Origin: Acidimicrobiaceae bacterium
GTDB taxonomy: Bacteria > Actinomycetota > Acidimicrobiia > Acidimicrobiales > RAAP-2
Length of the DNA stretch: 39,516 bases
Assembly (NCBI GenBank): GCA_003132305.1
Contig: PKXJ01000027.1
Span: 1-39,516, forward strand
Direction of reading: 5' to 3'
In this document: positions 26,365-31,664 of the stretch, piece by piece
Position numbering within the stretch: position 1 is the first letter of the stretch
Layout: each line of letters starts with the position of its first letter
Position numbers and translations under genes: made by a program
Notes under the pieces: model-generated
Database searches by the model: none
The model's input: only the letters and a program-made list of their open reading frames with translations
Told to the model about the DNA's origin: nothing

Positions 26365-26936
26365 TTCAAGAGACTCTCGAAGTTCTTCTGCGACACCAGG
26401 GTCGCGTGCGCGCCGTCGGGCAGGAGCAGACGCTGAGGAACCCCGGCCACCTTGATGATGATGCCCGTCGTGGCGCCCACGTCGTAGGCGGTGAGCACGA
26501 GCTGACCGACCGCGAGGAGTTGTTGGGCCTTCGTCAAGGTGCTGAGGGGCGTGGCGAAGTTGAAGTAGCCGACCTGGCCTCGCACGGTGGCCGAGACCAG
26601 CACCATGTTCGTGGGGAGCGCGGAGGTGTAGCCCGCGGACGTTTCGATCGCCGTGGGCCCGAGGAGGAGCTGTTCGATGACGGTCGCGAGCGCGGGTGGC
26701 GAGGGCACGATGCGACTCAAGGGCGCCAGGTGACCGGTGGCGTCGACGATGTAGACCGGCTGGGTGATGAAGCGAACGCGCGCGTTGTTGGTGCCGGGAA
26801 TCGTCTGATTGAAGAGGCCGTAGGGGTCTTTCAACACGGGAATGCGCACGGGCGACGCGTCGGGCGACACGAAGGTGCAACCCGCCAGCACGAGGGCGCC
26901 GAGGACGATGAGCGCCATCGCGCGGACTCTCTTCAC
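26361..26936 (-). CDS. GerMN domain lipoprotein (LpqB position)
   Basis: The 191-aa exported lipoprotein has an N-terminal signal of about 19 residues with the lipobox LAGC (Cys20), so it should be anchored to the outer face of the membrane. The rest is one GerMN domain (FITQPVYIVDATGHLAPLSR, LLLGPTAIE, NFATPLSTLTKAQQLLAVGQLVLTA-type pattern). In many actinobacteria the gene after mtrA-mtrB is lpqB, which has a GerMN domain plus a long C-terminal propeller-like part and acts on MtrB. This protein is in the same position but has only the GerMN part. It starts with GTG overlapping the kinase stop (GTGA). Confidence 0.85.
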   Translation of the reverse strand: MKRVRAMALIVLGALVLAGCTFVSPDASPVRIPVLKDPYGLFNQTIPGTNNARVRFITQPVYIVDATGHLAPLSRIVPSPPALATVIEQLLLGPTAIETSAGYTSALPTNMVLVSATVRGQVGYFNFATPLSTLTKAQQLLAVGQLVLTAYDVGATTGIIIKVAGVPQRLLLPDGAHATLVSQKNFESLLN

Positions 26937-28324
26937 GAGGTCTCCTCGTCGGCGAGGGGCAACAAGATCTGAAAGCGCGCGCCGCCCTCGGGGCTGTCGA
27001 GTACTCGAATAGTCCCGCCCACGGCGCGCACGTGGTCGTGCACGAGCGCGAGACCGAGACCCGTTCCTCGCACCACGCGGCGATCGTGAGCGGCGCGACC
27101 TCGAAAGAACCGTTCGAAGATCGCCTCACGCTCCTCGACTGGCACGCCGGGGCCCGCGTCGTCGACGTTGATGGCGAACTGGCCGAGCTCGTAGTCCAGT
27201 CGAATCGTCGTCGCGTCACCGGCGTAGTGGTGCGCGTTATCGATCAGATTGGTCATGACGCGCTCGAATCGCCGACGGTCCACCGAGACGAGGGGATCAT
27301 CGAGCGCGACGGCGACTTCAATGGGCGGTTCCCTCAACCCGTGGCGCCGAGCGGCGGAGCGAACGGACTGACGAACGAGTTCGATCGCCGCGACGGTTTC
27401 GATCACGAGCGGCACGGCGTCGGCGTCACTGCGCGCCATCTCGAGGAGGTCCTCGACGAGCGACTGAAAGATCGAAAGGTCGGCCGTCAGCAGATCCAAG
27501 CTCTCTTGGCCGGCCGGCGAAAGCTCGAGACGGTGTTGTTGCAAAACGGTCGCGGTCGTGGCGAGGGTCGTCAGCGGCGAGCGAAGTTCGTGGCTCACGT
27601 CACTGGCGAAGCGCGCGTCGCGCTCTAAGCGTTCCACTAGTTGGCCCACCATCTCGTTGAACGACTCGGTGAGTTGTTGGACCTCTCGGTCGGCGCGCGT
27701 CACTTGCAGGCGAGTCGAGAGATTGCCCTCGGCGATCGCCGCGGCGGCGAGTGAGACTCTCTCGAGTGGACGCACCGTTCGACGCGTGACCCACAGACCC
27801 CCGGCGATGCCGAGGAGGAAGGTCACGAGCGCGCCCGCACCGAGCACCAGCATCAGGTTCCGCAGCGTGTGTTCGAGCGAGCCGAGCTTAAAGACCTCGA
27901 AGAACTGGGTCTCCACCGCCGGGATGGGTACCCCCACGACGTAGATGAGTTTCCCGTTGATACTGAGGATCTGTGAGGTGGGCTCGCCGTGGCGGACGTT
28001 GGCGAGAAAGGCCGGCGACACGTCCTGGGTGGAAGCGCCTTCACTTCGCGAGAGCCACTGGTTGTGGGTCTGCACGAGGACGCTCGAATTGGTGGCGTGT
28101 TCGATCGAGTTGAGAATTCCGCTCAGCGTGGGGGGCGCGGTGTAGAGGGTGCTGCGAACGAGATCGGCGTTGACGTAGGCCTGTTTCAGGTCGGTCTGCA
28201 GGCGTTCGTTGACGAGCACGTGGTGAAATCCCTCGTAGGTCAGTGTGGCGAAAAGTCCGCTGAGTACGACGGCGCCCAGTCCGAAGGTAACTAAGAGTCG
28301 AAGTCGAAGACTCCGACGGCGCAT
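26933..28324 (-). CDS. Sensor histidine kinase, MtrB-like
   Basis: The 463-aa membrane sensor kinase has helices at about 8-28 and 155-178 flanking an extracellular domain of about 125 residues. A HAMP domain follows at about 179-232, then HisKA with the phosphoacceptor His245 in SHELRSPLTTL. The ATP-binding domain has the N box NLIDNAHHYA, DAGPGVP as G1, and GTGLGLALVHDH as G2. It should phosphorylate the response regulator encoded just before it (1-nt overlap TAATG). The gene order regulator-kinase-GerMN lipoprotein resembles mtrA-mtrB-lpqB, which controls wall metabolism and division in actinobacteria; the assignment to that system is by inference. Confidence 0.9.
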   Translation of the reverse strand: MRRRSLRLRLLVTFGLGAVVLSGLFATLTYEGFHHVLVNERLQTDLKQAYVNADLVRSTLYTAPPTLSGILNSIEHATNSSVLVQTHNQWLSRSEGASTQDVSPAFLANVRHGEPTSQILSINGKLIYVVGVPIPAVETQFFEVFKLGSLEHTLRNLMLVLGAGALVTFLLGIAGGLWVTRRTVRPLERVSLAAAAIAEGNLSTRLQVTRADREVQQLTESFNEMVGQLVERLERDARFASDVSHELRSPLTTLATTATVLQQHRLELSPAGQESLDLLTADLSIFQSLVEDLLEMARSDADAVPLVIETVAAIELVRQSVRSAARRHGLREPPIEVAVALDDPLVSVDRRRFERVMTNLIDNAHHYAGDATTIRLDYELGQFAINVDDAGPGVPVEEREAIFERFFRGRAAHDRRVVRGTGLGLALVHDHVRAVGGTIRVLDSPEGGARFQILLPLADEETS

Positions 28325-28998
28325 TAGAGGACCAGCTTGTAGCCCGTTCCTCGCACCGTGACGAGGTAAGTGGGACTGGCGGGGTCGGGCTCGATCTTCA
28401 TGCGCAGGCGCCGAATATGGACGTCCACGAGACGGCTGTCGCCAAAGTAGTCGTAACCCCAGACGTGTTCGAGCAGATCTTCGCGCGACAGCACGCGTCC
28501 GTTGGCGCTCGCTAAGTCGGTGAGCAGTCGGAACTCGGTGGAGGTGAGGTGCAGTTCGGTGCCGTCGAGGTGTCGAACGACGCCTTCGTCGGGCACCACG
28601 CGCAGTTCACCCATCTGAAAAGCGTTCGTGCTCTTGTCGGGACGACGGCGTAGATGAGCACGAACGCGCGCGAGCAACTCTTCGGGGACGAAGGGCTTGG
28701 TGACGTAGTCGTCGGCCCCGGACTCCAGACCGAGGATAACGTCGGCGGTCTCGTCGCGCGCCGACACGATCACGATCGGTAGATCGCTCGCCGTTCGAAG
28801 CGCCTGACAGGTTTGAAATCCCGTCATGCCCGGCAACATGACGTCGACGATGGCCACGTCCGAGGTCATGCGCGAGAAGAGGGCGACGCCCAGCTCACCC
28901 GTGGGGGCGTCGTCAACGATGAAGCCCTCGCCTTCGAACATCAGTCGAAGCGCGGTGCGAATGTGGTCGTCGTCTTCCACGATCAAGATACGGGGCAT
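28324..28998 (-). CDS. Response regulator, OmpR/PhoB family (MtrA-like)
   Basis: The 224-aa regulator has a receiver domain with the phosphate-accepting Asp52 in IVDVMLPGMTG, the acidic pair near residues 8-10 (EDD), and Lys101 in YVTKPF. A winged-helix DNA-binding domain covers about 130-224 (LTSTEFRLLTDLASANGRVLS, RLVDVHIRRLRMKIEPDP). ATG 28998 has AAAGGAG 5 nt upstream on the minus strand. A -10-like TAGTCT lies at 29029-29024, so this operon, unlike its neighbours, has a leader with a ribosome binding site. It is divergent from the recombinase gene. Confidence 0.93.
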   Translation of the reverse strand: MPRILIVEDDDHIRTALRLMFEGEGFIVDDAPTGELGVALFSRMTSDVAIVDVMLPGMTGFQTCQALRTASDLPIVIVSARDETADVILGLESGADDYVTKPFVPEELLARVRAHLRRRPDKSTNAFQMGELRVVPDEGVVRHLDGTELHLTSTEFRLLTDLASANGRVLSREDLLEHVWGYDYFGDSRLVDVHIRRLRMKIEPDPASPTYLVTVRGTGYKLVL

Positions 28999-29071: not shown

Positions 29072-29980
29072 GTGTCGGCTGTGCGTAGAGGCGAGCGGGC
29101 CACCTCTAGGTGGCGCCTGGAGAGTTACGCCGATACCCTGCGCGCCGCCGACCGTGCCGCGGCCACCCAGCGGGCCTACGTGTCCGACGCGAAGGCTTTC
29201 GTTACTTGGGCGAGCGAGCGCGACGCGACAGGTCCGAGCGAGATCACGAAGAAAGATCTCCGCGACTACTTGGTGTTCATGACCGCACGCGGCGACGAGC
29301 GGACCTCGATCATTCGACGCCGGGCGTCGCTGCGCAGTTACTTTGCGTGGCTCGTGGAGCGCGGGCACCTCAGCACCAGTCCGGCCGCGCGCCTGCTCGC
29401 CCCGCGTCCCGCGCAGCAGCTGCCCAAGATCGTGGTTCGTGAACAGCTCGACAATCTCTTGGACGACGACTGGGGCGACGACCAGTGGGCCACGCTCGAC
29501 CGCGCGGTCTGTGAGGTGCTCTACGGCGCGGGACTTCGCGTGTCCGAACTCTGCGGGCTCGACCTCGCGAGCATCGACTTCTCGAAGGGGCTCCTTCGCG
29601 TCCTCGGCAAAGGTCGCAAGGAGCGTATCGTGCCCCTGCACCGTAAGGGCCTCGAGGCGCTGCGCCTGTGGGTCGACGACGCGCGAGAGTACGTCGTACG
29701 CAGCGACTCACCCCCCGAAGCGCTGTTCTTGAATCGACGGGCCCGTCGGATCGGGCCACGCGACGTACGAAGAATTCTCGATCATCGCGTGCTGCGTGGT
29801 CACGTGCATCCGCACGCGCTTCGCCACACCTACGCCACGCACCTCGTCGAAGGCGGCGCCGATCTTCGCGTCGTTCAAGAACTCCTCGGCCACGAGAGTC
29901 TCACTACCACGCAGATCTACACCCACGTCTCAAAGTCGCGACTGCAGAAAGTTCATCGCCAGACCCACCCGAGGGGCTAG
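29072..29980 (+). CDS. Tyrosine recombinase, XerC/XerD family
   Basis: The 302-aa recombinase would resolve chromosome dimers at a dif site near the terminus. An N-terminal core-binding domain of about 15-105 precedes the catalytic domain. The active-site residues can be placed: Arg156 (GAGLRVSEL), Lys180 (GKGRKER), His248 and Arg251 (HPHALRH), His274 (LLGHESL) and the nucleophile Tyr283 (TQIYTHV). The gene is just upstream of rpsB, a place often held by xerC in actinobacteria, but xerC and xerD cannot be told apart by sequence reading alone. No adjacent repeat suggests that it is a phage or integron integrase. Confidence 0.92.
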   Translation: MSAVRRGERATSRWRLESYADTLRAADRAAATQRAYVSDAKAFVTWASERDATGPSEITKKDLRDYLVFMTARGDERTSIIRRRASLRSYFAWLVERGHLSTSPAARLLAPRPAQQLPKIVVREQLDNLLDDDWGDDQWATLDRAVCEVLYGAGLRVSELCGLDLASIDFSKGLLRVLGKGRKERIVPLHRKGLEALRLWVDDAREYVVRSDSPPEALFLNRRARRIGPRDVRRILDHRVLRGHVHPHALRHTYATHLVEGGADLRVVQELLGHESLTTTQIYTHVSKSRLQKVHRQTHPRG

Positions 29981-29994
29981 TTCTAAGAAACGAC

Positions 29995-30000
29995 TAATAT
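29995..30000 (+). promoter_or_regulatory. -10-like box TAATAT of the rpsB operon
   Basis: TAATAT lies about 113 nt before the GTG of rpsB. It would give a leader of roughly 105 nt that contains several hairpins. No clear -35 box is seen 16-18 bp upstream. Confidence 0.5.
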
Positions 30001-30006
30001 AGTCAG

Positions 30007-30112
30007 GCTCTCCCAGAGTGGGCGAGTTAGTGAGTTGTCCCCGTGGTTTCGTACGGTCGCCGTTCGCGGTGCTCTACGGGGTTGAAGCAACCATACGGAA
30101 GGAAACTAGATC
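30007..30112 (+). promoter_or_regulatory. Structured leader of the rpsB-tsf operon
   Basis: Four stem candidates can be drawn. CCCA/TGGG around GAG lies at 30012-30022. An outer pairing joins CCCCGT (30039-30044) and ACGGGG (30076-30081). Inside it is a hairpin ACGG-TCG-CCGT (30053-30063). GGTTG-AAG-CAACC (30080-30092) sits just before the AAGGAAA ribosome binding site, and its first two bases also belong to the outer pairing, so the two are mutually exclusive. Ribosomal protein S2 is known to repress its own operon in enterobacteria through the rpsB leader; a similar control here is inferred. Confidence 0.45.
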
Positions 30113-30841
30113 GTGGCCCTCGTCACTTTGCAAGAACTGTTGGACTCGGGCGTGCACTTCGGGCACCAGACCCGTCGTTGGAATCCCAAAATGCGCCGAT
30201 TTATCCTCGGCGAACGCAACGGCATCTACCTCATTGACCTGCGCAAGACCCTCGCGGGCATTGAGTTGAGTTACGCCTACGTGCGCGACCTCGTCGCCGA
30301 GGGCGGCGTCATTCTCTTCGTCGGCACGAAGAAGCAGACCCAGGGCCCCATCGCCGACTACGCCCAGGCCTGCGGTATGCCCTTCGTGAACCAGCGCTGG
30401 CTCGGCGGGATGTTGACCAACTTCGCCACCGTCGCCGGGCGCGTCAAGCGTCTGATCGAACTTCGCGCCATGGAGCGCGCGGGTGACTTTAACAACATGC
30501 CTAAGCGTGAAGCCCTTCGCCACAGCCGCGAACTCGAAAAGCTCGATCGCAACTTGAGCGGTATCGCGAACTTAGAACGCGTACCCGACGCCATCTTCGT
30601 CATCGACACGAAGAAGGAGCACATTGCCGTCACCGAAGCGCGCAAGCTCGGCCTACCCGTCGTGGCGGTCGTGGACACCAACTGTGACCCCGACGTCATT
30701 GACTACGTGATCCCCGGCAACGACGACGCGATCCGTGCGGGCTCGCTGCTGTGTCGTTTGATCGCCGACGCCGTGACCGAAGGCCGCTTCATTCGCCAGA
30801 ATCGTCCGGCCGTCACGATGACCCCGACGGCCAACGCTTAA
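30113..30841 (+). CDS. rpsB: 30S ribosomal protein S2
   Basis: The 242-aa S2 protein is of standard length. It starts with [24 protein letters not shown] and has [39 protein letters not shown] and VDTNCDPD, all conserved in S2. The GTG start has AAGGAAA upstream. It opens a long block of translation, membrane lipid and isoprenoid genes on the plus strand, with tsf 31 bp downstream. Confidence 0.98.
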
Positions 30842-30872: not shown

Positions 30873-31664
30873 GTGACGATCACCGCCAAAGACGTACAGG
30901 CACTTCGCCAGTCGACCGGCGTGGGCATGATGGACGCGAAGAAGGCCCTCGAGGCCAATAACGGCGACAAGGAAGCGGCCACCCAGTGGCTACGCGTCCA
31001 AGGACTCGCCTCGGCCGCCAAGCGCGCCGAGCGCGATGCCGGCGAAGGGGCCGTCGCCGTGGTGCGCGAGGGCAACGTCGCGGCGATCGTCGAGCTTCGT
31101 TGCGAGACCGACTTCGTCGCGAAGTCCGAGGAGTTCGTCAGCCTGGCCGACGAGATCGCCGCGCAGGTGTGTGCCGAGGGCGAAGAGTCCGTGGCTCACT
31201 TCAAGGAGAACATCGAGCAGATGCTCACGACCCTGAAGGAGAACATCTCCATTGGCCGCGTGTACCGACTCGAGGCCGGTCCCGACGAGGTCGTCGATAC
31301 CTACTTCCACCCCCAGTCGGGCCGTGGCGTTAACGCCGTCGCGGTCGTCGTGAAGGGCGCGAACAATGAGGTCGCCCACGAGCTGGCCGTGCACATCGCC
31401 TTCGCGAAGCCGCTCTATCTAAAGCGCGAGGACGTACCCCAGAGCGAAGTGGACAAAGAGCGCCAGACCGTGGAGGAGATCACGCGCAACGAAGGCAAGC
31501 CCGAAGCGGCGATGCCCAAGATCATCGAAGGACGACTGAACGGATGGTTCAAGGAGCGCGTCCTCTTAGAGCAGCCCTACGTCAAGGACGAGAAAGAGAC
31601 CGTCCAGCAGTTCTTGAAGGGCGCCACCGTTAGCGCGTACGCTCAAGTAGTCATCGGGGGATAG
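30873..31664 (+). CDS. tsf: Elongation factor Ts
   Basis: The 263-aa nucleotide exchange factor recycles EF-Tu. The N-terminal TDVGMMDAKKAL-type motif reads STGVGMMDAKKALEA near residues 12-26. The core has ELRCETDFVAKSEEF, the signature of the family, and PLYLKREDVP. The start is GTG 30873 with GAGGAG 7 nt upstream. The usual rpsB-tsf-pyrH-frr order is kept. Confidence 0.98.
   Translation: MTITAKDVQALRQSTGVGMMDAKKALEANNGDKEAATQWLRVQGLASAAKRAERDAGEGAVAVVREGNVAAIVELRCETDFVAKSEEFVSLADEIAAQVCAEGEESVAHFKENIEQMLTTLKENISIGRVYRLEAGPDEVVDTYFHPQSGRGVNAVAVVVKGANNEVAHELAVHIAFAKPLYLKREDVPQSEVDKERQTVEEITRNEGKPEAAMPKIIEGRLNGWFKERVLLEQPYVKDEKETVQQFLKGATVSAYAQVVIGG

Follow-up and report, generated by a model that had tools for sequence, protein, structure and literature searches.

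Three ribosomal-protein leaders of E. coli were reportedly found by Fu et al. in 2013 to be widespread among phyla. The leader kind that concerns us is the rpsB motif, a stem P1 capped by a junction of P2 and P3, in which the segment joining P2 to P3 base-pairs with a 3' extension of P1 (Meyer 2009, PMC2704228, in the accessible part of the paper). In E. coli the ribosomal protein S2 represses rpsB–tsf via such a leader, with S1 as a needed companion, according to the accessible part of a 2024 review (PMC10931766), which places the ribosome binding site outside the S2 operator and for that reason calls the mechanism of repression unclear. The first-pass annotation of the DNA analysed here had called this kind of control established in enterobacteria and had known of no actinobacterial example. 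S2-type leaders are not limited to enterobacteria: the accessible part of the motif description lists most Alpha- and Gammaproteobacteria, Cyanobacteria, some Firmicutes and others (PMC2704228), and the model of the E. coli leader (t44, RF00127) matches some actinobacterial rpsB leaders, under its cut-off. There is almost no information on ribosomal-protein control in Actinomycetota according to a 2021 paper (PMC8470358, in its accessible part); the mycobacterial rpsO (S15) leader treated there is likewise an autogenous ribosomal-protein leader with a pseudoknot from this phylum, but it involves another protein and another structure. No earlier report of an S2 leader in Actinomycetota was found in the literature searched, and such a report is possible, since key papers lay outside the reach of the search. 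The leader table of PMC7247131, in the part shown, has no S2 entry.

The window, that is, the whole stretch of 39,516 nucleotides that was analysed, comes from an acidimicrobial genome and carries a leader between xerC (stop at 29980) and rpsB (GTG start at 30113). Downstream of rpsB the gene order is tsf, pyrH, frr, a cdsA-like gene and dxr, and tsf is probably in one operon with rpsB. The minus strand of the window at 26933–28998 encodes an MtrA/MtrB-like two-component pair, divergent from xerC, both members of which score under the curated MtrAB cut-offs. Judged by comparison of sequences, the leader is probably an autoregulatory S2-type leader of the rpsB operon, of the rpsB-motif kind in a form specific to Acidimicrobiia, through which S2 would repress by occlusion. 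Comparative support for the structure is strong, and the leader is probably regulatory; that S2 is its natural ligand and represses by masking the ribosome site is inferred. Its elements and the two genes that follow it are these:

29995–30000, plus strand: putative –10 box TAATAT of the inferred promoter; TANNNT is kept in relatives
30006–30028, plus strand: P0, 5'-terminal hairpin GGCUC-CCCA/UGGG-GAGUU, from the minimum-energy fold; a similar hairpin is seen by eye in many relatives
30039–30046, plus strand: P1 5' strand, CCCCGUGG, partner of 30074–30081, present in the minimum-energy fold
30047–30057, plus strand: J, the pseudoknot 5' strand, UUUCGUACGGU, pairing with 30090–30100 (duplex swap test)
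30058–30071, plus strand: P3, hairpin CGCCG-UUCG-CGGUG (pairing across 102 leaders)
30074–30081, plus strand: P1 3' strand, CUACGGGG (partner swap, near-set covariation)
30090–30100, plus strand: pseudoknot 3' strand, ACCAUACGGAA, extending into the Shine-Dalgarno sequence
30097–30103, plus strand: Shine-Dalgarno sequence GGAAGGA, 9 nt before the GTG at 30113
30113–30841, plus strand: rpsB, ribosomal protein S2 (TIGR01011, E 3.9e-98), GTG start at 30113
30873–31664, plus strand: tsf, elongation factor Ts (TIGR00116, E 1.1e-65)

A transcript start downstream of the stems would have spoken against a structured leader RNA. We found a conserved –10 box upstream of every stem, which makes it very probable that the stems are part of the mRNA. 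In 93 of 101 leaders the hexamer TANNNT lay 78–140 nt 5' of the start codon, compared with 29 expected from base shuffles (200 runs, maximum 42), and its position was mostly 110–129 nt before the start codon. A generic sigma-70 promoter scan of the window leader called no promoter, though the relatives share the –10 box. From the usual –10 spacing the transcript would start at approximately 30005–30007, directly ahead of the 5' hairpin. The immediate succession of –10 box and P0 (29995–30028 in the window) recurs in many acidimicrobial rpsB leaders, and P0 may serve as an mRNA stabiliser.

The comparison was based on 147 leaders from the 100 relatives, 80 fetched loci and 40 further genome regions, with some near-duplicates (copies of one species) and with many MAGs among the source genomes. 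RpsB was present in 98 of the 100 relatives, and the nearest of the named loci mostly carry the label Acidimicrobiaceae or Actinomycetes MAG. Three loci were left out beforehand: L008 (contig end), L082 (N-terminus unmatched) and L148 (no start codon found). By eye the leaders share a common order of –10 box, 5' hairpin, P1, CGGUC, P3, P1', linker, AACCG, purine-rich Shine-Dalgarno sequence and start codon. The anchor letters GGU and AAC had the required spacing in 142 of the 147, against a mean of 5.5 and a maximum of 11 in dinucleotide shuffles; the five unparsed leaders were L075, L078, L124, L126 and L130. Removal of leaders more than 90% alike left 103, and omission of the truncated L059 left 102 for alignment; these had been picked by the GGU/AAC anchors, so that the invariance of the anchors among them is by construction. 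The near set consisted of loci L001–L063 and L150–L154 and supplied 34 near leaders, 32 of which (without L151 and L154) formed the near-set alignment. The swaps and shuffles used below keep the relatedness of the leaders, and the resulting figures are not probabilities. The element is absent or weaker in some relatives, L130 having no AACC strand and L125 and L143 being weak.

The outer stem that the first-pass annotation had drawn between CCCCGT (30039–30044) and ACGGGG (30076–30081) is present in the letters and is real by comparison with near relatives; it is longer than was stated, with eight pairs, and corresponds to P1. Across the 32 near leaders 92.5% of P1 cells were paired, and double-sided changes were seen at all eight pairs, each in at least one leader. 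When the P1 strands of each leader were paired with each other or with strands swapped between leaders, the own partners gave –18.2 and the swapped partners –14.3 ± 0.28 kcal/mol (102 leaders); the corresponding values were –17.1 and –11.7 ± 0.47 in the near set, and –18.8 and –15.7 ± 0.36 in the leaders outside it. We relied on this leader-by-leader test and on the near-set alignment instead of the fixed columns of the 102-leader alignment, in which P1 was 61.0% paired and its outermost pair 48.5%, in our reading because the aligner shifts the P1 register between lineages. P3 was paired in 100% of cells among the 32 near leaders and in 96.0% among the 102, where its fifth pair showed six standard pair types. 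For the full structure the covariation score in the 32 near leaders was 0.301, compared with 0.140 ± 0.010 after shuffling and at most 0.093 after sliding. A structured rpsB leader in an actinobacterium had been proposed in the first-pass annotation, with covariation among homologous leaders as the check; P1, P3 and the pseudoknot covary among the relatives, and this part of the proposal holds.

Folding energy was no better than that of shuffled sequence (–46 versus –42.8 ± 3.7 kcal/mol, z –0.85, with 37 of 200 shuffles as good), as would be expected if the structure were a chance folding of GC-rich DNA; given the outcome of the anchor, partner-swap and pair-count controls we assign that explanation a negligible probability. 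Nested minimum-energy folds are unable to contain pseudoknots, and that of the window contained the outer stem with an inner hairpin, without P3, and also paired 30034–30038 with 30087–30091. The inner hairpin, formed by ACGG (30053–30056), TCG and CCGT (30060–30063), draws on the last letters of J and the first letters of P3. Evaluated alone, P0, P1 and P3 together (–29.0) were more favourable than P0, P1 and the inner hairpin (–26.7); the full nested fold had –39.2 and the pseudoknot duplex alone approximately –9. Of the nested folds of the 102 leaders, 67 contained P3 and 13 an inner hairpin. Folding energy thus leaves P3 versus the inner hairpin undecided, and alternative folds are possible in the closest kin of the window.

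The first-pass annotation had read the inner hairpin and a second one, GGTTG (30080–30084), AAG and CAACC (30088–30092), as mutually exclusive parts of a switch that share bases 30080–30081. All the letters named are present, but 30080–30081 belong to the outer stem and to the GGTTG hairpin, and not to both small hairpins, the last two structures listed. The switch would accordingly set the outer stem against the GGTTG-AAG-CAACC hairpin, the two excluding each other and governing access to the ribosome site. The letters permit the AACC hairpin in the window and, as a type with at least four pairs, in 12 of the 34 near leaders; hairpins of this sort would be rivals of P3 and would contend with the pseudoknot for AACC, and the inner hairpin has its place in the nested minimum-energy fold described above. 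The AACC hairpin was possible in only 18 of the 102 leaders, those 12 included, and the inner hairpin in 11, compared with 97 in which a P3-type stem of at least four pairs directly follows GGU. The AACC strand pairs with the GGU of J, and the energy comparison of the isolated elements also favours P3. As a mutually exclusive switch the two hairpins are not conserved, and we rejected them on conservation, their letters belonging to P3 and to the pseudoknot, whose reach onto the Shine-Dalgarno region was absent from that account. That such a switch governs rpsB is, in our judgement, very improbable.

The pseudoknot of the window consists of ten pairs and one C.A mismatch at 30054/30093. In its core J ends with CGGU; the partner strand, ahead of the ribosome site, starts with ACCG in 97 of 103 leaders and with ACCA in four. 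The core was paired in 98.5% of cells among the 102 leaders, a figure that largely follows from the GGU/AAC selection. Compensated change of the core was seen in the unparsed related leaders L075 and L078, with CAGU/ACUG for CGGU/ACCG, and the core of L139 is UGGU with ACCA. Outside the core, UUUCGU pairs with ACGGAA in the group of the window, and other groups have CCCA with (A)UGGG or (U)UGGG, UCCA with (AC)UGGA, UCUA with (UC)AGA, CUUU with AAGG, or CUCA with (U)UGAG. The mean duplex energy of own strands was –11.5 kcal/mol compared with –9.2 ± 0.22 for swapped strands, the lowest of 300 swaps reaching –9.8 (97 distinct pairs). For the outer run without the core, the leaders outside the near set had 3.77 pairs against 2.88 ± 0.11, and none of 2000 shuffles was as high (66 distinct). 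There is hardly any variation of the pseudoknot among the near-set leaders, and no covariation: the outer run had 3.81 own pairs against 3.65, with 659 of 2000 shuffles as high, and in the 32 near leaders 94.7% of cells were paired with zero double-sided changes in ten pairs. Counted by fixed columns across the 102 leaders, the outer pseudoknot pairs were 48.5% and 73.4% paired, which we read as low because of register shifts between lineages. In the leader L126 (G082) a hairpin-like stretch is inserted between P1 and the AACC strand, and its pseudoknot, CCCGCGGU with ACCACGGG, has a C.A mismatch as in the window.

When the best match to AAAGGAGGU was taken as the Shine-Dalgarno sequence, the 3' strand of the pseudoknot overlapped or abutted it in 82 of 101 leaders, and in the window this strand covers 30097–30100 of GGAAGGA. 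Since the strand enters the Shine-Dalgarno sequence, occlusion stabilised by S2 is the simplest reading. The transcript would begin just upstream of the element, at about 30005; P1 and P3 would form the stem, and the inner 5' strand J would pair with the segment that ends inside the Shine-Dalgarno sequence. Free S2 in excess over assembling 30S subunits would then bind and stabilise the pseudoknot, and the stabilised pseudoknot would keep the ribosome off rpsB, lowering the synthesis of S2 and, by coupling, that of the downstream gene products. Once ribosomes have taken up S2, the pseudoknot would open or be invaded by the 30S subunit, and translation would proceed. Strain is possible where the 11-nt J stands opposite a 2-nt linker (30072–30073), and opening of the top of P1 would relieve it. 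The ancient S2 leader might have become a direct lock in Acidimicrobiia, perhaps even in much of Actinomycetota, with J as an anti-Shine-Dalgarno strand and the pseudoknot covering the ribosome site, a form of repression unlike that of E. coli, whose ribosome site is said to be free; we rate the chances of this as even. A pseudoknot that reaches the Shine-Dalgarno sequence would offer a directly testable mechanism for self-repression by S2.

Another ligand (S1 alone, S1 together with S2, or EF-Ts), or control of transcription instead of translation, might be considered here, given that S2 of E. coli needs S1 as a companion (PMC10931766, accessible part). No terminator-like site or attenuator was found in 29900–30150, and the entry of the pseudoknot into the Shine-Dalgarno sequence fits control of translation; we hold these variants, taken together, to be improbable.

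Compared with the rpsB motif (PMC2704228, accessible part; RF01815), the window leader has the same position upstream of rpsB, P3 within a long P1, and J pairing with the 3' extension that follows P1; the printed consensus of RF01815 contains CCGGU and AACCGG. It differs in that P2 was not seen, the whole of 30047–30057 being the pseudoknot strand. P2 is not strictly required in the motif description, which allows it to be absent or short in several groups (PMC2704228, accessible part). The window leader further differs in having no CACAC...GGAGG flanks of P1, in a pseudoknot lengthened into the Shine-Dalgarno sequence, and in being unmatched by the Rfam model. The E. coli rpsB–tsf leader (RF00127) reads ACACACGUAUC...CCGGGGUGCC...GAUACGUGGAGGCAUAACCCC, in which we assign the same succession of P1, GGU-containing strand, hairpin, P1' and AACC strand; in our reading of the sequence, about a dozen bases separate its AACCCC strand from the Shine-Dalgarno sequence downstream, unlike in the window. 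By topology we therefore place the window leader in the S2-leader kind, outside RF01815 and RF00127 as now modelled because it stays below their score thresholds. A structure without S2 feedback, in which the pseudoknot and the 5' hairpin simply set the level of rpsB translation or the stability of the mRNA, is suggested by the hairpin at the transcript start, which suits a stabiliser, and a ligand is invisible to sequence comparison. Against constitutive structure stand other leaders of this topology, for which a response to S2 is known or has been proposed, and the occurrence of the element before rpsB even where lineages differ greatly in sequence; we hold such a structure to be unlikely. 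We therefore keep to the S2-responsive leader.

Searches with covariance models bear on how far this leader kind extends. The gathering scores are 40 bits for RF01815 and 44 bits for RF00127; a search of the window with Rfam gave nothing above threshold in the leader, and neither RF01815 nor RF00127 had a match there. In 20 leaders from the order of the window, RF01815 gave one full-length alignment, in L121, at the right place and strand, with 24.2 bits and E 0.12, beside which a chance CRISPR match had E 0.11. In 40 genomes of the phylum RF01815 had no match over the cut-off and six weak ones (E at least 0.08), none confirmed at rpsB; those in G137, G114 and G118 were on contigs other than that of rpsB. 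RF00127 gave four weak matches in the 100 relatives, none over the cut-off. In 20 actinobacterial rpsB leaders it gave four sense-strand matches (E 3e-5, 0.0025, 0.13 and 0.18), one of them in L195, from the class of the window itself. In the 40 phylum genomes it gave ten matches, none over the cut-off and the best with E 1.9e-6. Four of these were directly 5' of rpsB (G142, 2.3e-6; G118, 1.8e-4; G114, 2.8e-4; G102, 0.015) and two on contigs other than that of rpsB (G105, G107); the remaining four matches were in G111, G119, G132 and G129. Scores of RF00127 in other Actinomycetota reached 37.2 bits. At their cut-offs the Rfam models thus miss the S2-leader class in the Actinomycetota genomes searched.

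With model R1, 12 matches with E below 1e-6 were obtained in 296 phylum genomes, and all 12 were directly upstream of rpsB, although the alignment from which R1 was built already contained at least four of them (G000, G039, G074, G079). At E up to 0.1, 136 of the 296 genomes were matched; the weak matches are probably mostly background and were not used. In the genome of the window R1 found one place at 67 bits (a training sequence), and the next at 17.5 bits. R1 links the window with its order and class. G377, a relative from the order of the window, has two rpsB-like genes (contigs C3 and C5, 68% and 66% identical to that of the window), with an R1 leader match at C3 only. In the one-contig genome G091, rpsB (contig C1, 632031–632729) contains one in-frame TAG and has an R1 leader match with E 3.3e-6.

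Many other Actinomycetota keep E. coli-like flanks, with CACACG before P1 and GGAGG after P1', followed by AACC. Of the 40 phylum leaders, 20 carried the signature CAC...GGAGG...AACC and 25 an anchored P1 stem, the latter count having no null run and including places in L200 and L221 that look like chance; we therefore refrain from extending the element to every class. In the swap test of the phylum pseudoknots, own strands gave –9.8 and swapped strands –8.35 ± 0.33 (39 of the 40 leaders, L226 left out). A joint alignment of 15 other actinobacterial leaders with that of E. coli aligned the ends and not the middle, and no model was built from it. These comparisons suggest that an S2 leader kind known mainly from other phyla is carried into Actinomycetota. 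In the last 130 bases before rpsB, L198 (from the class of the window), L206, L207, L227, L228 and others have the look of a canonical S2 leader. The leader L227 has a compensated pseudoknot, UUAUGGU/ACCAUAA, and other Actinomycetota leaders have compensated pseudoknots of their own.
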